DNA of 64,000 nucleotides. Origin: Kribbella sp. VKM Ac-2569 (GTDB lineage: Bacteria > Actinomycetota > Actinomycetes > Propionibacteriales > Kribbellaceae). Location: assembly GCF_004216905.1 (NCBI RefSeq), contig NZ_SGXJ01000003.1, forward strand, positions 434,001 to 498,000. The letters are read 5' to 3'. Positions 4,391 to 14,223 of this stretch are shown one piece after another. The notes under the pieces are model-generated. The model searched no databases and was not told the origin of the DNA. It worked only from the letters and a program-made list of their open reading frames with translations. Every line of letters starts with the position of its first letter. Position 1 is the stretch's first letter. The translations under genes were made by a program, and so were the position numbers.

Positions 4391-5257
4391 ATGGACGACA
4401 CGGGCGGCAACCTCATCATCGTGTCCGGTATGTCGGGCGCGGGACGGAGCTCCGTCGCCGACGTACTGGAGGACCTCGGCTGGTTCGTGGTGGACAACCT
4501 GCCGCCGATGTTCCTGACCACCCTCGTCGAGCAGGTCGTCGGGACCGGCGCGGCGCCGCGGCTCGCGGTCGTCGTCGACGTCCGGACCGGCCTGTTCTTC
4601 GAGGAGCTGAGCTCGGCGATCCACGACCTGCGGCTCAAGGGGTACCGGCCGCTGACGTTGTTCCTGGAGGCGTCCGACGACGTCATCGTGCGCCGGCAGG
4701 AAAGCGTCCGCCGGCCGCACCCGTTGCAGGGCGAGGGCCGGCTGCTCGACGGCATCCAGCGTGAGCGCGAACTGCTCGGCGACATCCGGGCCGGCGCCGA
4801 CCTGGTGATCGACACCTCGAGCCTGAACATCCACCAGCTCGCCGCGAAGATCGTGAACGCGTTCGGCGACGAGGAGAACGCGGAGCTCCGGGCGACCGTG
4901 GTGTCGTTCGGGTTCAAGTACGGCATCCCGGTGGACGCCGACGTGGTCGCCGACATGCGCTTCATCCCGAACCCGTACTGGCAGCCCGACCTGCGCCCGA
5001 TGACCGGGCAGGACAAGCCTGTGTCAGACTTCGTGCTCGGCCATCCGCTGGCCCAGCAGTTCCTGCAGAACTACGTGGACGTGCTGGACACCCTGCGGAC
5101 CGGCTACCTGAACGAGGGCAAGCGCTTCGTCACCGTCGCGATCGGCTGCACCGGGGGTAAGCACCGCAGTGTCGCGATGGCGGAGGAGATCGCCCGCAGG
5201 CTGCGCGAGAAGGGGTCACCGACGTTAGTGGTACACCGGGATCTGGGGCGGGAGTGA
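4391..5257 (+). CDS. rapZ: RapZ/YvcJ family nucleotide-binding protein
   Basis: A protein of 288 residues with an N-terminal P-loop GMSGAGRS (about 13-20) and the C-terminal RapZ domain, which includes IGCTGGKHRS, a motif typical of the family. In E. coli RapZ senses GlcN6P and guides RNase E to the GlmZ RNA; in Gram-positives the role (YvcJ) is less clear and linked to nucleotide binding and envelope metabolism. The stop overlaps the next gene's start by four bases (GTGA), so translation with yvcK is probably coupled. Confidence 0.95.
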   Translation: MDDTGGNLIIVSGMSGAGRSSVADVLEDLGWFVVDNLPPMFLTTLVEQVVGTGAAPRLAVVVDVRTGLFFEELSSAIHDLRLKGYRPLTLFLEASDDVIVRRQESVRRPHPLQGEGRLLDGIQRERELLGDIRAGADLVIDTSSLNIHQLAAKIVNAFGDEENAELRATVVSFGFKYGIPVDADVVADMRFIPNPYWQPDLRPMTGQDKPVSDFVLGHPLAQQFLQNYVDVLDTLRTGYLNEGKRFVTVAIGCTGGKHRSVAMAEEIARRLREKGSPTLVVHRDLGRE

Positions 5258-6195
5258 GCCGGGCGCCTCGGGTCGTCGCACTGGGTGGGGGACATGGCCT
5301 GGCCGCATCCCTTTCCGCGCTTCGTCACGTCACCGATCAGCTCACCGCGGTCGTCACGGTCGCCGACAACGGCGGCTCGTCCGGGCGGCTGCGCCAGGAG
5401 CTCGGCGTACTGCCGCCGGGTGATCTGCGGATGGCGCTGGCCGCGCTCTGCCGCGACGACGAGTGGGGCCGGACGTGGGCCGACGTACTGCAGCATCGCT
5501 TCCGCAGCAACGGTGAGCTGCACGACCACGCGGTCGGCAACCTGCTGATCGTCGCGTTGTGGGAGCTGCTCGGCGAGGCAGTCGACGGTCTCGACTGGGT
5601 GGGCCGGCTGCTCGGCGCGGAGGGCCGGGTGCTGCCGATGTCCGCCGTACCGCTGGATATCACCGCACGGGTGCTCGGGCTGGACCCGGCGCATCCGGAG
5701 GCGATCACGGAGATCCGCGGTCAGACCGAGGTGGCGTCGACCGAGGGACATGTCGTCGACGTCGCGCTGGACCCGGCCGACCCGCCGGCCTGTCCCGAGG
5801 CCCTGGTGGCGATCGCGGAAGCGGACTGGGTCGTGGTGGGGCCGGGGTCCTGGTTCACCTCCGTCATCCCTAACCTGCTGGTGCCCGCACTGTGCCGCGG
5901 CCTCGAGCAGACCAGCGCCCGACGACTCCTGACGCTCAACCTGGGAGAGCAGAAGGGGGAGACCGACGGGTTCTCGCCCGAGACGCACCTGGAGGTGCTG
6001 GCCGGGCACGCGCCGGATCTCCGGATCGACGTCGTGCTCGCCGACGCCGGTCACGTGCCCGACCCCGAGTCGCTGCGCCGTACGGCGGAGTCCCTCGGGG
6101 CCGAGCTGGTGATCGCCGACATCGCCGACGAGGACCGCGACCTGCACCACGCCCCGGACAAACTCGCCAAGGTCTACCGGGAGATCTTCAGCTAA
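5254..6195 (+). CDS. yvcK: YvcK family UDP-sugar-binding protein (gluconeogenesis factor)
   Basis: A soluble protein of 313 residues. The N-terminal ALGGGHGLAASL glycine-rich motif and the following VTVADNGGSSGRLR segment are typical of the YvcK/CofD-like superfamily. In actinobacteria the homologue CuvA is needed for cell-wall homeostasis, and YvcK proteins bind UDP-GlcNAc. It starts at GTG inside the rapZ stop. Its last four bases overlap the stop of the convergent sigma-partner gene. In most actinobacteria whiA follows directly; here it lies 3.6 kb away beyond two inserted units. Confidence 0.94.
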   Translation: MSRAPRVVALGGGHGLAASLSALRHVTDQLTAVVTVADNGGSSGRLRQELGVLPPGDLRMALAALCRDDEWGRTWADVLQHRFRSNGELHDHAVGNLLIVALWELLGEAVDGLDWVGRLLGAEGRVLPMSAVPLDITARVLGLDPAHPEAITEIRGQTEVASTEGHVVDVALDPADPPACPEALVAIAEADWVVVGPGSWFTSVIPNLLVPALCRGLEQTSARRLLTLNLGEQKGETDGFSPETHLEVLAGHAPDLRIDVVLADAGHVPDPESLRRTAESLGAELVIADIADEDRDLHHAPDKLAKVYREIFS

Positions 6196-7604
6196 TCGAA
6201 ATCGGCGTCGACGTCCTTCTTGGCGGTGTACACCTGCTTGCCCTGCGCGTCGTACCCGCGCACGCGGACGTTCTGGATGTCGGAGTTCCCGCCGGTCAGG
6301 CCCCAGATGTAGTAGCCGTTCGAGATCAGCGCGCGGGTCGGGCCCTGCTTCGGCAGGTCGACGACGAGCTGCGCGACGCCGTCCGGCACCATTCCGAAGC
6401 TGAAGTCGTCGGCGAACTTCCCGTTCGCCTGTACGGCGCTCCGCGTGTAGTCGTACGCGCCCTTCGCGGTTGGCGCCAGCATGTGGCACCAGGCGTAGAC
6501 CTTCTTGTCGGGTGATATGAGTACGGCGGTGAGCTTGTTGCCGGTGCCCGTCTTGAGCGCGACCTGCCAGTCCTTCGTGACCGGGCCGGCGGCCTTGATC
6601 CGCGGATCCTGTGCACTGCTCCTACCACTGAAGTAGATGTCGTCCACTTCGCGGCACCGCGTGGTGATCTGCTCGTCGGTCAGCGGACTGACCGGCGGCG
6701 GGGGAGCGAGAGCTTTCCGGGTCAGCGGGTCCTTCGTGAGTACGACGTTCGGCGTGATCGGCTCGGCGGTCTTGACCGTGACGCTGTCCGGGACGGGCCG
6801 TTCGGTCGCTGCGGTCGGGAGCGAGGGTCGCGTGTACTCGAAGGTCTTGCGGCCCTGCTCGTCGTACCCGCGGACGTGCCGGACCCGGCCGCTGGTCGAG
6901 GCGTCGAACCCGAGCGAGTAGTAACCGTTCTCGCCGAGTAGTGCCTGCCGCGGTTCGGTCTCGCCGTCGAGGTCGACCAGAACCTCGCGGACACCGTCCG
7001 GAACCCGGTTCGCGACTGCCCCGCTCGGCTTCGTGCCCGAAACGTCGGCCTTGGTGCTGAAACGTCCATAGGACTGCGCCTGCCCGACACTCATCAACGT
7101 GCAGGTGCTGACGATGGACTGGTCCGGCGACAGGAACATCGCCTGCACCCGGTTGCCGGCGCCGGCCTTCACGACGACCTTCCAATTGGCGCCGAGCGGT
7201 TGACCCTTGTCGAAGGAGTTGGCGCCACGCTCGCGCAAGAAGTCAACGTGCTCGTTGTCGGCTTGCTTGCACTGGCTGCGCAGGTTGGCGTCGCTCAGCT
7301 GGCTGACGGGCGGAGGCGTCTGGACGCCATCGCCGGTCTCGTCCTTGATGACGCGACCGGTTGTCGGATCCATCGTGAGCCGCGGGCTGTCCGCCGGGCC
7401 GGTGCTCTCGTTGCGGTTCGCGGACCAGGTCGCGACACCAGCGATGATGACGCCCGTGGTGAGGACGGCGGTGGAGACCGTTGCGATTCGCGTCCTCCGC
7501 ACGGAGCGCCGGGCACGCACGAGCAGATCGTCGACGTCGGTGGTCAGTGGCTGGTCGGTGTCATCGGCGGCAGCGGCCAGCAGGCGTTCGATCTCCGTAC
7601 TCAT
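6192..7604 (-). CDS. Single-pass membrane protein with duplicated extracytoplasmic domain, partner of the ECF sigma factor
   Basis: A protein of 470 residues. The first 40 or so residues are cytoplasmic and charged, one membrane helix follows (about 41-60), and the rest should lie outside the membrane. The outer part is a tandem duplication: about 97-258 and 301-462 align by eye (PPPVS start, a Cys pair 56 residues apart in both copies at 112/168 and 317/373, VPDGV, GYY, RVRGYD/HVRGYD). The ATG at 7604 is preferred over an upstream extension because it overlaps the sigma factor stop (ATGA). That arrangement fits a membrane regulator of the sigma factor, but no classical zinc anti-sigma motif is seen, so the role is inferred. 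Confidence 0.75.
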   Translation of the reverse strand: MSTEIERLLAAAADDTDQPLTTDVDDLLVRARRSVRRTRIATVSTAVLTTGVIIAGVATWSANRNESTGPADSPRLTMDPTTGRVIKDETGDGVQTPPPVSQLSDANLRSQCKQADNEHVDFLRERGANSFDKGQPLGANWKVVVKAGAGNRVQAMFLSPDQSIVSTCTLMSVGQAQSYGRFSTKADVSGTKPSGAVANRVPDGVREVLVDLDGETEPRQALLGENGYYSLGFDASTSGRVRHVRGYDEQGRKTFEYTRPSLPTAATERPVPDSVTVKTAEPITPNVVLTKDPLTRKALAPPPPVSPLTDEQITTRCREVDDIYFSGRSSAQDPRIKAAGPVTKDWQVALKTGTGNKLTAVLISPDKKVYAWCHMLAPTAKGAYDYTRSAVQANGKFADDFSFGMVPDGVAQLVVDLPKQGPTRALISNGYYIWGLTGGNSDIQNVRVRGYDAQGKQVYTAKKDVDADFD

Positions 7605-8107
7605 GAGGCGCTCCTTTCGGTCTGGTCGAGAAGTTCGCGGAGGCGGGTGAGGCCACGGGAGGTCTGGCTCTTCACGCCGCCGACGCCGATGCCGAGGATG
7701 TCGGAGGTCTGTTCGAGGCTGAGGTCGGCGTAGTGCCGCAGTACGACGCACGCGCGTTGACTCGGCGGCAGCGCGCCGAGCGCCTGCACGACGAGCATCC
7801 GGTCGTCGACAATGCCGACCGGATCAGGCTGCGGCGGGGTCTTCTCATCGGTGTCGACGAGCCGTTCCCGTCGCCACGGCTTCCTGGACTGGTCGAACAC
7901 GGCCGTGACCAGGCATTGGTGCGCGTAGCCGTTCAGCCCTTGGGTGCGGTCGATCCGGTGCCAGCGGCGGTACACCTTCACCAGCGCGTCCTGCGCCGCG
8001 TCCTCCGCCCGGTGCCAGTCCCCACACATCAGGTACGCCGTTCTGCGCAGCCGCCGGATCGTGGTCGCGGCGAACTCGGTGAACTCGGCGTCGTCCGGTG
8101 CCTTCAT
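7601..8107 (-). CDS. ECF RNA polymerase sigma factor, SigE-like family
   Basis: A protein of 168 residues with sigma region 2 at the N-terminal half (YLMCGDWHRAEDAAQDALVK) and region 4 at the C-terminal half (LPPSQRACVVLRHYADLSLE, then ILGIGVGGVKSQTSRGL, the helix-turn-helix). This is the compact layout of actinobacterial SigE-family ECF factors. A ribosome site GAGGAGG lies just upstream. The stop overlaps the start of the membrane partner, so the two are co-translated. An ECF-like promoter lies upstream (8135-8163), which would fit autoregulation. Confidence 0.9.
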   Translation of the reverse strand: MKAPDDAEFTEFAATTIRRLRRTAYLMCGDWHRAEDAAQDALVKVYRRWHRIDRTQGLNGYAHQCLVTAVFDQSRKPWRRERLVDTDEKTPPQPDPVGIVDDRMLVVQALGALPPSQRACVVLRHYADLSLEQTSDILGIGVGGVKSQTSRGLTRLRELLDQTERSAS

Positions 8108-8134
8108 ACCCCTCCTCTCAGAACATCGCCGGAG

Positions 8135-8163
8135 TAACGCACTGAGCCCGCCAAAAGGTTGCA
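8135..8163 (-). promoter_or_regulatory. Candidate ECF-type promoter of the sigma factor operon
   Basis: Read on the minus strand: TGCAACC (8163-8157), a 17-base spacer, then CGTTA (8139-8135). An AAC-containing -35 and a CGT-type -10 are usual for ECF promoters. It lies 27 bases before the sigma factor start. Confidence 0.4.
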
Positions 8164-8298
8164 GTTCTCGTAACGGATCCTCTCCGCTTCCGTTGGAGTG
8201 ATCGACCCCGAGACGGCTTGCGTTCGTCGCGAGGGTGATGAAGCGACTGGGTCTGCGAGCGGCCGGCGGTTGTCGGTGGTCGATGGGAGGGTGGTGAG

Positions 8299-9753
8299 AT
8301 GGCGAGGTTCAAGATCCCGGACGGTTGGGTGATGCAGGCATACCGGTACGCGCTGGATCCCACGCCCGCCCAGGAGCGGAGCCTGGCCTCTCACGCTGGG
8401 GCAGCAAGGTTCGCTCGCAACCACATGCTCAGACTGGTGAAGGCGGTGCTGGACCAGCGGGCGGCTGAGCGGTCGTACGGCGTTGCTGAGGCTGACCTGA
8501 CGCCGGGCCTGGGATGGTCGCTACCGGCGTTGCGCAGGGTGTGGAACGCGCGCAAGAACTCGGCGGCGCCGTGGTGGAAGGAGAACTCCAAGGAGGCATA
8601 CAACACAGGCCTGGACTCCCTCGCGAGGTCGCTGGAGGCGTGGTCGAAGTCCCGCGGAGGCAGGCGTGCCGGGCGGCCAGTTGGGTTCCCCCGCTTCCAC
8701 ACCAAGCGTGCGCGCGCGAGCGTCCGGTTCACCACCGGTCCCATCCGGCTCGAGCCCGACCGGCACCACGTCACCCTCCCCAAGCTCGGCAGGATCCGCA
8801 CGCACGAATCCACACGGAAGCTCGGACTCCGCATCGAGAGCGCGACCGCGCGGGTGCTTTCCGCGACGGTTGCCAGGGACAGTGATGGGCGTTGGTACGC
8901 CTCTTTCCAGACTCTCGTACAACGCACCACCACCCGTCCGGCACACGCGGGTATACGGCACGCCGTGGTGGGTGTGGATGTCGGTGTGAAGGACCTGCTG
9001 GTGGTCGCCACTCCGGACGGCGCCGAGGTCGAGCGTGTGCCTGCGCCCCGGAGCCTCGCCAGGGCACAGGTCCGGCTGCGAGCGCTGCAACGCAAGGCCT
9101 CACGCCAGCAGGCCCCGTACGATCCCCAGTCGAAGCAGAAACGGTTGCCTTCCAAGCGGTGGCGACGCACCCAGGCCCTGATCGGTAAAGCCCACGCGCG
9201 CGCCGCGAGCATCAGGCGGGACACTGTGCAAAAGGCCACCACCCGGCTCGCCCAGCAGGTCCTGGTCATCACCGTGGAGACCCTCAACGTCTCGGGCATG
9301 CGGACGGCCGGCGGTGCGCGCAAGCGTGGCCTGAACCGCGCGTTGGCGGATGCCGCTCTCGCGCAGGTACGACGCATGCTCGCCTACAAGACGATCTGGT
9401 ACGGGTCCAGACTGGTCGAAGCCGACCGCTGGTATCCGTCCAGCAAGACCTGCTCGGGATGCGGAAGCCGAAAGCCAAGGCTTCTGCTGGCCGAGCGCAG
9501 TTACGTGTGTGAACACTGCGGCCTGGTCATCGACAGAGACCTGAATGCCGCTATCAACCTCGCGAGACTCGGCGAGGCTCACACCCTGAGTGAACGGAGT
9601 CCCGCCGGGAGTGGCCCGGTTGCAGGACGTGGAGCCACGCAGGAGACCGAACCCGCGCCAGCGGGCGACGCAGCAGGCTGTGAAACGTCAACCCCGCCCC
9701 AGCACCCGCTGGATCAGACGGGGACTGCCTCACCGCAAGGCGAGGCTGCCTGA
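8299..9753 (+). CDS. tnpB: TnpB family RNA-guided DNA endonuclease (IS200/IS605-like)
   Basis: A 484-residue protein with the full TnpB layout. An N-terminal wedge/helical part ([16 protein letters not shown]) is followed by a RuvC-like nuclease. Its three acidic positions are visible: Asp227 in VGVDVG, Glu327 in ITVETLNV and the DRDLNAA motif (Asp412/414). A zinc ribbon (Cys385, 388, 404, 407) sits between the second and third. TnpB cuts DNA guided by an RNA made from the 3' end of its own transposon and helps retain the element. The low-complexity C-terminal tail after about residue 425 overlaps the region that would encode the guide RNA. No TnpA transposase is nearby. GGGAGG lies 8 bases before the ATG. 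The gene appears intact. Confidence 0.92.
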
Positions 9754-9778
9754 TGGAGCAAACCGACGTTCGCTTTGC
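8299..9778 (+). mobile_element. TnpB-only IS200/IS605-type (IS1341-like) element, ends undefined
   Basis: The element consists of tnpB and its right-end hairpins. It has no Y1 or serine transposase, so it would depend on a transposase elsewhere in the genome for movement. The left end could not be fixed by eye because these elements have no terminal inverted repeats or target duplications. It sits between the sigma factor gene and whiA. Confidence 0.5.
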
Positions 9779-9780
9779 CA
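9600..9780 (+). ncRNA. Candidate guide RNA (omegaRNA/reRNA) at the tnpB 3' end
   Basis: By family precedent the TnpB guide RNA overlaps the 3' coding end and reaches the right end of the element. Here two hairpins cluster there. One at 9727-9746 is a GC stem closing a GCAA tetraloop; the other at 9758-9778 has GCAAA pairing with TTTGC and an inner CGA/TCG. The 5' limit is arbitrary. The guide would be the bases just after the true right end, which cannot be fixed from one copy. Confidence 0.3.
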
Positions 9781-9820
9781 GCAGGCAACGGTCTTTGACA
9801 CGGGTGGGAGGATGGCCTTC

Positions 9821-10804
9821 ATGGCGATGACAGCACAGGTGAAGTCCGAGTTGACCAGTATTCAGGTGACGAAACCGTGTTGCCGCAAGGCTGAGGTCTC
9901 GTCGATCCTGCGGTTTGCCGGCGGACTGCACCTAGTGTCCGGACGCATCGTCGTCGAGGCCGAACTGGACAGCGGCGCAGCGGCCAGGCGGCTGCGCAAG
10001 GACATCGCCGAGATCTTCGGTCACCCGTCGGACGTGGTGGTGATTTCCCCGTCAGGCATCCGGAAGCAGACGAAGTACGTCGTACGCGTGGTCCGGGACG
10101 GTGACGCGCTCGCGCGGCAGACTGGACTCGTGGACAACCGCGGCCGTCCGGTCCGAGGGCTTCCGCCCGCGGTCGTGTCCGGTGCGTCCTGTGACGCCGT
10201 GGCGGCTTGGCGTGGCGCGTTCCTCGCGCACGGTTCGCTGACCGAGCCCGGCCGGTCGTCCTCGCTCGAGGTGACCTGCCCCGGACCGGAGGCGGCGCTC
10301 GCGCTGGTCGGTGCGGCGCGGCGGCTCGGGATCGGTTCGAAGGCGCGCGAGGTGCGGAACGTGGACCGCGTGGTGATCCGCGACGGTGACGCGATCGGCG
10401 CCCTGCTCACCCGGCTCGGTGCGCACGAGTCGGTGCTGGCCTGGGAGGAACGCCGGATGCGCCGCGAGGTCCGCGCGACCGCGAACCGGCTGGCCAACTT
10501 CGACGACGCGAACCTGCGCCGCTCCGCACGAGCCGCGGTGGCCGCGGGCGCGCGCGTCGAGCGGGCGCTGGAGATCCTCGGCGACGACGTACCGGACCAC
10601 CTGCAGATCGCGGGCAAGCTGCGGCTGGAGCACAAGCAGGCCAGCCTCGAAGAGCTCGGCCAACTGCACGAGCCGGCGCTCACCAAGGACGCCGTCGCCG
10701 GCCGGATCCGCCGGCTGCTCGCGATGGCCGACAAGCGCGCCAGCGACCTCGGCGTCCCGAACACCGAAGCAAACCTCACGCCGGAGATGCTCGACCCGGC
10801 CTGA
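9821..10804 (+). CDS. whiA: Sporulation/cell-division regulator WhiA
   Basis: A protein of 327 residues: a degenerate LAGLIDADG homing-endonuclease-like N-terminal region ([28 protein letters not shown]) followed by a C-terminal helix-turn-helix domain ([31 protein letters not shown]). In Streptomyces WhiA works with WhiB to activate septation genes; it is present in most Gram-positives. The ATG at 9821 is chosen because GGGAGG ends nine bases earlier and the start [11 protein letters not shown] matches known WhiA proteins; an ATG at 9812 abuts the ribosome site. It is cut off from its usual yvcK neighbour and so must use a nearer promoter. Confidence 0.95.
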
Positions 10805-10812
10805 CCGGATCG

Positions 10813-10821
10813 TTATCCACA
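10813..10821 (+). promoter_or_regulatory. DnaA-box-like 9-mer
   Basis: TTATCCACA, an exact match to the canonical DnaA box, in the short gap after whiA. A second exact copy lies at 51551-51559. A lone box does not make an origin. Confidence 0.3.
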
Positions 10822-10861
10822 ACCGGCTGCGCACGCCTTGCCAGCTCGGTTGGATTGCCGC

Positions 10862-11275
10862 ATGGGCACAGAAAACGAAGAAGAACTGTACAAGCGGCAG
10901 CAGATGGATGAACGGCTCAGGGTCCAGGAGCAGACCCGACAGCAGCAGGAAGCGCTGGCCAAGTTCCGTGAGGCGGAGGCGGCACGAAAGGCGGCCGAGG
11001 ACGCTGCGAAAAAGAGCAGCATGGTTGCTGACCCGGCCGCCGGCGGAGTGTCCTGGCCGGACAACGAGGTGCAGGCTGCGCCGCAGACGGGTATGGACAA
11101 GGTGGCCGGTGCCCTGCGGGTCGGGCAGGCCGGTGATGTGGCCTTCGCGCGGGACCTGCTGAACAGCGGTCAGGCGCCCCTCGGCGGTGTGGCCAAGCCG
11201 GAACAGGCCGCCGACGGCGCGAAGGAAAGCCCGGCGGGGTCACGGGCCGCGAAGCCGGCGCTCGGCCTCGGCTGA
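10862..11275 (+). CDS. Small charged coiled-coil protein, function unknown
   Basis: A protein of 137 residues, not recognised as a named family. The first 50 or so residues are rich in Glu, Gln, Arg and Lys and look like a single coiled coil (ELYKRQQMDERLRVQEQTRQ); the rest is Ala/Gly rich without membrane segments. Codon use resembles the neighbours. No good ribosome site precedes the ATG; an in-frame TTG lies 24 bases upstream. A compact hairpin follows the stop by nine bases. It could be a cytoplasmic structural or accessory protein; nothing in the context decides this. Confidence 0.6.
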   Translation: MGTENEEELYKRQQMDERLRVQEQTRQQQEALAKFREAEAARKAAEDAAKKSSMVADPAAGGVSWPDNEVQAAPQTGMDKVAGALRVGQAGDVAFARDLLNSGQAPLGGVAKPEQAADGAKESPAGSRAAKPALGLG

Positions 11276-11284
11276 TCGAGCGCT

Positions 11285-11337
11285 GACCGCCGGTTGCCTC
11301 CACCCTCGCGTGATTGCGGGGGTGGGACCGGGCGGTC
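11285..11337 (+). terminator. Nested hairpin after the coiled-coil gene
   Basis: GACCGCC at 11285-11291 pairs with GGCGGTC at 11331-11337 and continues inward with GGT/ACC around a one-base bulge. Inside sits a second stem, CCACCC (11300-11305) with GGGTGG (11320-11325). It starts nine bases after a stop codon, so termination is the simplest reading, but it is also in the leader of the M4 protease gene. Confidence 0.5.
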
Positions 11338-11472
11338 GAAGGTTTTCCCGGTGATTCCGGGGTTTTCGAGTCCGATCCGTTCCTTTTGGCGGTCGGCTCG
11401 CCGAGGGTGTGCGTGCCCATTCGCGCACGTCCTGTCCCGGATCGTGCGCGTCTCCCGCCCAAGGAGTAACGC

Positions 11473-12999
11473 ATGAAGCGCATTCATCGCGCCGGTCTGG
11501 CCGCGACCGCGATCGCCGGTCTGGCCGTCGTCACCATCACCGTGAACGTGCAGGCCGCCCAACCCGGTGGCTCCGCCGTGTCCCCGGTGGCCGCTGCCCG
11601 CTCGAACGCCGTACAGCTCGGCATCGGCGACGGCGGCGACCTGGTCGTCCGTGACGTCGTCGTGGACGGCGACGGCAGCAGCCACGTCCGTTTCGACCGC
11701 ACGTACCAAGGTCTTCCGGTCGTCGGCGGCGACGTCGTCGTCCACCAGGACAAGGCAGGCAAGGCCCGGTCGGCGACCGGTGGGGTCGGCAAGCTCGCCC
11801 TGTCCGTCAAGCCTGCCGTCTCTGCCGCGTCCGCGACCGCTGCCACGAAGCAGAAGGCCGGCAAGCAGCAGCTCGTCGTCTTCGTCACGAACGCCGGCCA
11901 TTCCAAGCTCGCGTACAAGGTCGTCAGCGAAGGCCGCAAGGCCAACGGCGAGCCGACCGGCACCGAGACGTACGTCGACGCGCAGAACGGCAAGGTCCTC
12001 GACAGCTGGACCACGGTGAACGACGACCTCGGCAGCGGCACCGGCCTGTACGTCGGCACCGTCGGACTGGACACCACCAAGTCCGGCACCAGCTGGACGA
12101 TGGTCGACCCGGTCCGCGGCGGCAACGCGACGTACAACGCGGGCACGCTGTTCTCCGACGCCGACAACGTCTGGGGGACCGGCAGCAACTCGAACGCGCA
12201 GACCGCGGGCGTCGACGCCCACTACGGCATCGCGAAGACGTGGGACTACTACAAGAGTGTGCACGGCCGCAACGGCATCGCCAACGACGGCAAGGGCGCG
12301 AAGTCGTACGTCCACGACGGCGCGTACGTGAACGCGTCCTGGAGCGACTCCTGCTTCTGCATGCGGTACGGCGACGGCGACGCGAGCCAGGGGATCGGCC
12401 CGCTCGTCGAGCTGGACATCGCCGGCCACGAGATGAGCCACGGCGTCACCAGCCGCTCGGCAGGCCTGCGCTACAGCGGCGAGTCCGGTGGCCTGAACGA
12501 GTCCACGTCGGACATCTTCGGCACGGCCGTCGAGTGGTACGCCGCCAACAGCCAGGACACCCCGGACTACGTGCTCGGTGAGGAGATCTTCACCGACTAC
12601 AACCCGGCGACGAACTACATCCGGCGGCTCGACAAGCCGTCGATGGACGGTGCCTCCGCCGACGCGTGGTCGAAGGGCGTCGGCCGGCTGAACGTGCACT
12701 ACTCGTCCGGTGTCGGCAACCACTTCTTCTACCTGCTGTCCGAGGGCAGCGGCGCGAAGACGATCAACGGCGTCGCGTACAACAGCCCGACGGCCAACGG
12801 CGTCACGGTCACCGGTATCGGCATCACCAAGGCCGAGAAGATCTGGTACCGCGCGCTGACGACGTACATGACGTCCCGGACCGACTACCACGGCGCGCGC
12901 ACCGCGACGCTGAACGCGGCCACGGATCTCTACGGCGCGAGCAGCGCGGAGCGGGCCGCGGTCGACAAGGCGTGGGCCGGGGTGAACGTGCTCCCGTGA
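11473..12999 (+). CDS. Secreted M4 family metalloprotease (thermolysin-like)
   Basis: The 508-residue precursor has a signal peptide (about 1-28), an FTP-type propeptide (about 44-90, with QGLPVVGGDVVVH), a PepSY-like propeptide (about 105-185) and the M4 catalytic domain. Zinc ligands are the HEMSH motif (His319, Glu320 as catalytic base, His323) and Glu343 in GLNESTSD; a late His in NVHYSSGVGNH fits the transition-state residue. It should be an extracellular endopeptidase kept inactive by its propeptide. AAGGAG precedes the ATG. It is transcribed alone and followed by a very strong hairpin. An emfourin-type M4 inhibitor is encoded about 8.4 kb downstream. Confidence 0.94.
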   Translation: MKRIHRAGLAATAIAGLAVVTITVNVQAAQPGGSAVSPVAAARSNAVQLGIGDGGDLVVRDVVVDGDGSSHVRFDRTYQGLPVVGGDVVVHQDKAGKARSATGGVGKLALSVKPAVSAASATAATKQKAGKQQLVVFVTNAGHSKLAYKVVSEGRKANGEPTGTETYVDAQNGKVLDSWTTVNDDLGSGTGLYVGTVGLDTTKSGTSWTMVDPVRGGNATYNAGTLFSDADNVWGTGSNSNAQTAGVDAHYGIAKTWDYYKSVHGRNGIANDGKGAKSYVHDGAYVNASWSDSCFCMRYGDGDASQGIGPLVELDIAGHEMSHGVTSRSAGLRYSGESGGLNESTSDIFGTAVEWYAANSQDTPDYVLGEEIFTDYNPATNYIRRLDKPSMDGASADAWSKGVGRLNVHYSSGVGNHFFYLLSEGSGAKTINGVAYNSPTANGVTVTGIGITKAEKIWYRALTTYMTSRTDYHGARTATLNAATDLYGASSAERAAVDKAWAGVNVLP

Positions 13000-13027
13000 T
13001 CGGGTGAACCTCACCTAGACAGTGATG

Positions 13028-13070
13028 CGAACGGCGGTTTCCGGAGAGACATTCCGGAAATCGCCGTTCG
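13028..13070 (+). terminator. Terminator hairpin after the M4 protease gene
   Basis: An 18-bp stem (13028-13045 with 13053-13070) with a single G-U pair and a seven-base loop, 28 bases after the stop codon. It is the longest near-perfect hairpin I saw in the window. Confidence 0.75.
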
Positions 13071-13104
13071 TCGTACCAGCCAGTGGTCTGGTCTGAAGCC
13101 GTGA

Positions 13105-14223
<1,119 letters not shown>

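Follow-up and report, generated by a model that had tools for sequence, protein, structure and literature searches.

TnpB proteins of the IS607 type (NCBIfam NF038280) are nucleases whose guide RNA is encoded at the right end of their element (PMC11061315, PMC8612924). IS607 transposes into GG without duplications and has GG targets and GG termini (PMC6188088), and in ISDra2 the guide is the flank that follows the right end (PMC8612924). A second described system is the PafBC regulon (PMC8223512), in which RecA-independent (P1, RecA-NDp) promoters follow the PafBC-dependent consensus tTGTCRgtg-8nt-TannnT (PMC5656591) and PafBC is activated by single-stranded DNA (ssDNA) (PMC11804915). Here, we describe a TnpB element of Kribbella sp. 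VKM Ac-2569, found in a stretch of 64,000 nucleotides of contig NZ_SGXJ01000003.1 (positions 434,001 to 498,000; the whole stretch is called the window), which appears to combine features of both systems. The element shares the nuclease family, the right-end guide RNA and the GG-cored insertion with IS607 TnpB systems; unlike a complete IS607, it has no TnpA serine recombinase, it carries a predicted damage-type promoter upstream instead, and its RNA is of the RF03015 type. With the PafBC regulon it has in common the consensus and its spacing, a near-leaderless start and the repair genes that share the motif in this genome, but the member added here would be a transposon-derived, RNA-guided nuclease. 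Like the nuclease-dead TnpB regulators called TldR, it is a TnpB relative kept without a transposase, although its RuvC residues are intact and not inactivated as in TldR. We propose that, as with homing endonucleases and a plasmid TnpB gene drive (PMC11870625), cutting of element-free alleles would favour the element; unlike in those systems, timing by DNA damage is predicted and the element has no transposase.

Our best reading of the compared sequences is that TnpBs without a transposase have repeatedly been rewired to the DNA-damage response. For the present locus we consider it reasonably probable, as one joint reading, that the element (about 8197-9791) derives from IS607, lost its serine-recombinase transposase while keeping the TnpB nuclease and the guide RNA, and encodes an RNA-guided homing or retention nuclease with damage-type (PafBC) wiring, which would be induced by damage, cleave empty alleles and home into them. 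The broader proposition that actinobacterial transposase-less TnpBs repeatedly joined the PafBC regulon as damage-timed, RNA-guided homing nucleases is advanced tentatively. The features on which the following analysis builds are:

8190-8196, no strand assigned: left flank CCGTTGG with the insertion core GG at 8195-8196, from empty sites
8197-8269, + strand: left end of the element, absent from empty sites
8270-8278, + strand: -35-like half TTGTCGGTG of the predicted RecA-NDp/PafBC promoter, fitting the published consensus
8287-8292, + strand: -10-like half GAGGGT, 6 nucleotides before the tnpB ATG
8299-9753, + strand: tnpB, IS607-type RNA-guided nuclease of 484 amino acids, catalytic residues intact
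9654-9791, + strand: predicted scaffold of the guide RNA (omega/reRNA), which shares sequence with the 3' end of tnpB, 137/138 positions identical in K. soli
9682-9750, + strand: match to Rfam RF03015 (Transposase-2 RNA) at 65.8 bits (gathering score 42.7)
9692-9696/9719-9723: stem of the first of two hairpins, supported
9727-9746, + strand: hairpin with GCAA tetraloop, from folding and covariation
9747-9787, + strand: terminal hairpin (9747-9752/9782-9787) abutting the right end, its 3' arm beyond the RF03015 match
9788-9791, + strand: right end ACGG with the GG core at 9790-9791, conserved in an alignment of 25 sequences (A1)
9790-9811, + strand: predicted guide, the whiA leader up to the first ATG (9812), placed by its position after the right end

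A preliminary description of the window had seen an intact, lone TnpB, and this was borne out: the product scores 487 bits against NF038280 IS607_TnpB (cut-off 350), exceeds the cut-offs of the Pfam families Cas12f1-like_TNB, OrfB_IS605 and HTH_OrfB_IS605, and is homologous to TnpBs of known structure (best match 9j09, E 8.8e-45). An alignment of 76 sequences shows that this protein has the RuvC residues D227, E327 and D414 and the zinc cysteines C385, C388, C404 and C407, and a nuclease-dead regulator was rejected on account of the kept RuvC D/E/D. A search for the IS607 TnpA (NF033518) gave no match in the genome (G000) at E<=1e-3, and none lies near or upstream of tnpB. Besides this tnpB, the genome holds five distant TnpBs at 33-35% identity; the nearest named match is the protein of K. 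soli (95% identity), which corresponds to genus genome G024.

The likely special feature of the locus is its upstream promoter of RecA-NDp/PafBC type, which it has in common with many TnpA-less relatives. The sequence TTGTCGGTG-N8-GAGGGT (8270-8292) matches 9/9 positions of the -35 half with an 8-nucleotide spacer and resembles the switch by which actinobacteria activate DNA-repair genes; the tnpB start is predicted to be leaderless. All 29 bases of 8270-8298 are identical in K. soli, while 8197-8298 overall shows 10 substitutions and 3 gap columns. Within its own genome, the pattern TTGTCRGTG-N9-A-N3-T has 30 exact matches versus 2 for the reversed control, and an ATG or GTG follows 6-7 nucleotides downstream in 13/30. 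Downstream open reading frames (ORFs) were scanned for 15 of the 30 matches; 6/15 encode proteins of a repair or nuclease kind (UvrA, DinB, two AlkZ-like glycosylases, an RNase_T/GIY-YIG protein and a metallophosphoesterase), and the remaining nine belong to various families (GNAT, RibD_C, two ABC transporters, a luciferase-like enzyme, an aldo/keto reductase, PNPOx-like, YgjP-like and one without a family). The genome also encodes pafA, pafB and pafC, recognised by Pfam as a Pup ligase, a WYL/WCX protein and an HTH_PafC protein in one 10-kb stretch; the two WYL proteins named by Pfam had no NCBIfam name.

To relate the promoter to the loss of TnpA, we compared 78 TnpB loci, consisting of the window and its genus, order and class matches, in which TnpA was scored with a small profile and the motif was called at a best score of >=10/12 with a start codon 5-8 nucleotides on. 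The start was estimated from the query position where a match began late (e.g. L175, L198, L210, L211, L218, L219), L155 was omitted as the second half of the broken L148, L020 and L007 denote one place, and the loci of the named-match search, K. soli among them, entered a single separate motif scan only, with 12/22 scanned. The motif was present at 17/32 loci without TnpA, 3/9 with degraded TnpA (L196, L197 and L017, the last inside the tnpA coding sequence) and 1/37 with intact TnpA (L015, again inside tnpA coding). The antisense strand gave 0/78, and dinucleotide shuffles gave 0/640, 0/180 and 0.14%. An earlier scoring had found 16/32 TnpA-less loci versus 4/46 others (Fisher p=5.7e-5). On a TnpB tree of 76/78 loci (L188 and L216 were too short; L015 and L017 were labelled motif-less, as their motifs lie inside tnpA), the motif needs 6 parsimony changes, compared to a mean of 16.3 and a minimum of 12 for shuffled labels. 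By sequence, it occurs in at least four places, mostly TnpA-less: the window pair, nearest to the degraded-TnpA L148 and the TnpA-bearing L174/L175; a second Kribbella group, sister to the TnpA-bearing L156/L157; L196/L197, grouped with the TnpA-bearing L199; and L150-L153 together with L223-L226/L229. The D/E/D residues are kept in the motif-bearing TnpBs, with the exception of the frame-broken L016.

Several of these loci show arrangements of their own. L014 (G021) lies within the first codons of a host gene, probably a helicase; its empty alleles carry TTGTCGGTG-N8-TGAGAT or near variants, and the element seems to borrow the RecA-NDp-like promoter of the host gene. At L008, L009, L012, L013 and L016 the motif is followed after 6 nucleotides by a short leaderless ORF (ATGCCTGACGA... 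or near variants), whose stop appears to run into the tnpB start in several of these second-group copies, so that translational coupling is possible. In L018 and L019 (G008) a perfect LexA SOS box TCGAACATATGTTCGA lies some 200 bases ahead of tnpB, and after it come the beginning of another gene (presumably a 13E12/DUF222 HNH gene), a tnpA remnant and then tnpB; on sequence, these boxes represent a second kind of damage-type TnpB control, and no convincing LexA box was found at the other loci among the 78. L220 (G550) is a lone TnpB directly downstream of the apparent guide-RNA end of another element, with a score-10 motif further upstream.

The second component of the proposed system is the guide-RNA end, which is real by both sequence and structure. 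That the right end encodes a guide RNA had been suggested before, and the RF03015 match and the covariation now back it. The counted structure, in which both Rfam stems are combined with a short inner stem and the further terminal hairpin, has 85.5% paired cells over the aligned ends, with both sides changed in 16/21 pairs and a covariation score of 0.376 versus 0.143 in shuffles, reached by 0/500 of them; this named structure was counted because RNAalifold alone kept only 10 pairs. The free-energy z-score is weak by itself (-1.69); the RNA structure convinces by its covariation. Both 3' hairpins of the preliminary description, including the one with the GCAA loop, are supported, and they are joined by a third, terminal hairpin, in which 76.7% of cells pair in register versus 27-45% when slid. 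The AACGG terminus is near-invariant across the 25 aligned ends, and the last 31 tnpB codons show no synonymous change against K. soli, at a synonymous divergence (dS) of 0.14 for the whole gene. Three of 20 loci (L020, L022 and L023) also carry RF03015 at their 3' ends, as do 11/20 further loci (L154, L149, L174, L187, L186, L180, L155, L181, L175, L157, L156) and 6/20 of another locus set. No match above threshold came from the more distant motif-bearing L150-L153, L223-L226 and L229 or from the second Kribbella group (L008, L009, L012-L014, L016), five of which are nonetheless included in alignment A1.

Empty Kribbella sites place the insertion between the sigma-operon promoter and whiA. 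In G017, G022, G029 and G033, CCGTTGG is directly followed by GTCTTTGAC, and in the window the element is flanked by CCGTTGG and, from 9790 on, by GGTCTTTGAC; the G-run differs in length by one G at the nearest empty sites. This comparison, which had been suggested for fixing both ends and the target-adjacent motif, set the right end at GG 9790-9791, slightly beyond the 9778 first given for a locus that is otherwise confirmed; the left end falls between 8197 and about 8213, an uncertainty of up to about 17 bases. Other Kribbella elements likewise terminate in CAACGG or CGACGG, and the two with aligned empty sites (L009 and L014) are consistent with GG insertion. The first 12 nucleotides of the predicted guide have a single occurrence in the genome, and its target differs at 0-3 of its first 20 bases across all 28 empty Kribbella sites examined.

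With respect to distribution, whiA is present in 38/38 genus genomes and the insertion in only two (G000 and G024), each with a single close copy of tnpB. The region upstream of whiA was read in 30 genus genomes, two filled and 28 empty, the latter out of 36 insertion-free genomes. That the gene is retained without a transposase, as previously suggested, agrees with the identical site in K. soli and a ratio of nonsynonymous to synonymous divergence (dN/dS) of 0.187 for tnpB (27.5 nonsynonymous and 49.5 synonymous differences), from which tnpB appears to be under purifying selection after insertion. The dS between the window and K. soli is 0.14 for tnpB, 0.16 for the sigma gene, 0.18 for whiA and 0.21 for yvcK. 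The shared site, the low dN/dS and a dS near that of the neighbours together indicate that tnpB has long been kept by selection at one place.

Starting from what can be read in the sequences, namely the nuclease residues, the RNA end, the insertion site, the promoter motif and the association of this motif with the loss of TnpA, we propose the following circuit. DNA damage would increase the amount of ssDNA, which occurs at broken forks and also enters during conjugation, and PafBC would thereby be activated. PafBC would direct RNA polymerase to TTGTCGGTG-N8-GAGGGT and yield a leaderless tnpB transcript, the 3' end of which may give rise to the guide RNA with about 16-20 nucleotides of the whiA leader as the guide. 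The TnpB-RNA complex would cut element-free copies of the whiA leader, be it in incoming DNA, a recombinant or an empty sister, and recombination, favoured in that repair response, would copy the element into the cut allele. Since cutting also generates ssDNA, the circuit might reinforce itself. The simplest purpose of the damage wiring is probably homing or retention at times of recombination. For the persistence of TnpB genes after transposase loss, a promoter change toward one stress response would offer a mechanism, which bears on the survival of RNA-guided nucleases outside transposons; the comparison also yields GC-rich TnpB/guide-RNA pairs that are predicted to be damage-inducible. In the literature searched, which was mostly without subscription papers, we found neither TnpB joined with PafBC nor a report of a damage-inducible TnpB (topics SOS/damage, homing, domesticated/TldR and mitomycin), nor 'Transposase-2 RNA' by name. 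In an ISDra2 study, irradiation did not induce transposase expression (PMC2806898); in a mycobacterial recA mutant treated with mitomycin C, nine transposases and one resolvase are reported to be overexpressed (PMC8151990).

Several points weigh against the proposed circuit. At the promoter, GAGGGT fits only 2/3 of the specified -10 bases, and the motif thresholds were chosen after the first cases had been seen, although the consensus itself was taken from print. The compared loci are not independent, and four or more origins are a small number. The dN/dS is based on one species pair, and for the target-adjacent motif only GG is common to the three left flanks read. The insertion is patchy: a tree of whiA and downstream DNA pairs the empty G017 with G000 (support 1.0) and leaves the filled G024 outside. 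Over the 106 columns that end at the left side of the site, the filled alleles differ at 13 positions, filled and empty ones at 22-28 and empty ones at 14-15. The tree placement implies clean loss in some lineages or an allele moved by recombination or allelic exchange. Finally, 15/32 TnpA-less loci score below 10, and the damage wiring is therefore not a general rule. This last count, together with the insertion in only 2/38 Kribbella genomes, is also what an ordinary stranded IS607 remnant would lead one to expect, with TnpB active or slowly decaying and the upstream motif coincidental. We regard such a remnant as unlikely in view of the dN/dS after insertion, the nearly unchanged RNA end, the promoter identical in K. 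soli, the association of the motif with TnpA loss and the absence of the motif from 640 shuffles.

Alternatively, a damage-induced TnpB could benefit the host as a defence against plasmid, conjugative or phage DNA, or as part of a damage-triggered response. The entry of ssDNA in conjugation would suit such a role, as would the activation of PafBC by ssDNA (PMC11804915) and the cutting of element-free plasmids by a TnpB gene drive (PMC11870625). The sole predicted guide, whose first 12 nucleotides have a single genomic occurrence, is the chromosomal whiA leader, and positions 5000-13500 revealed no further guide, which makes defence quite improbable. Even less credence is given to an element still mobile in trans through a TnpA from elsewhere, with TnpB mainly guarding against loss on excision: the patchy presence, the clean empty sites in near relatives and the kept AACGG end would fit, but neither G000 nor G024 has an IS607 TnpA at E<=1e-3 and the close copy is single in both. 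Least probable of all is a regulator of whiA, acting in a TldR-like manner or through read-through from the damage promoter, since, despite a guide that overlaps the whiA leader and a co-directional tnpB just upstream, the catalytic residues are intact, the guide match in the occupied chromosome follows the right end and not the original left flank, and relatives with this promoter type sit at unrelated places. The preliminary description had also considered a link to whiA as a developmental regulator; this found no support: the GG target explains the site, and few genomes carry the insertion.

The neighbours named at the outset, a sigma-factor operon on one side and whiA on the other, were confirmed by Pfam and NCBIfam searches. 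A special partnership with the sigma operon was rejected, as the operon adjoins whiA also in close Kribbella relatives without the insertion. Positions 6192-8107 of the window hold a SigE-family extracytoplasmic function (ECF) sigma factor and a 519-amino-acid ORF without a Pfam match, between yvcK and whiA, and close relatives show an identical sigma-gene start upstream of whiA. CCGTTGG at 8190-8196 is likely also the -35 side of the divergent sigma-operon promoter. Just upstream of whiA, TCTTTGACA is present in 30/30 Kribbella genomes read (9792-9811 in the window, and the corresponding leaders) and may serve whiA as a conserved regulatory element; L064 and L071 carry repeats of a GGGTCTTTGACAGC unit.
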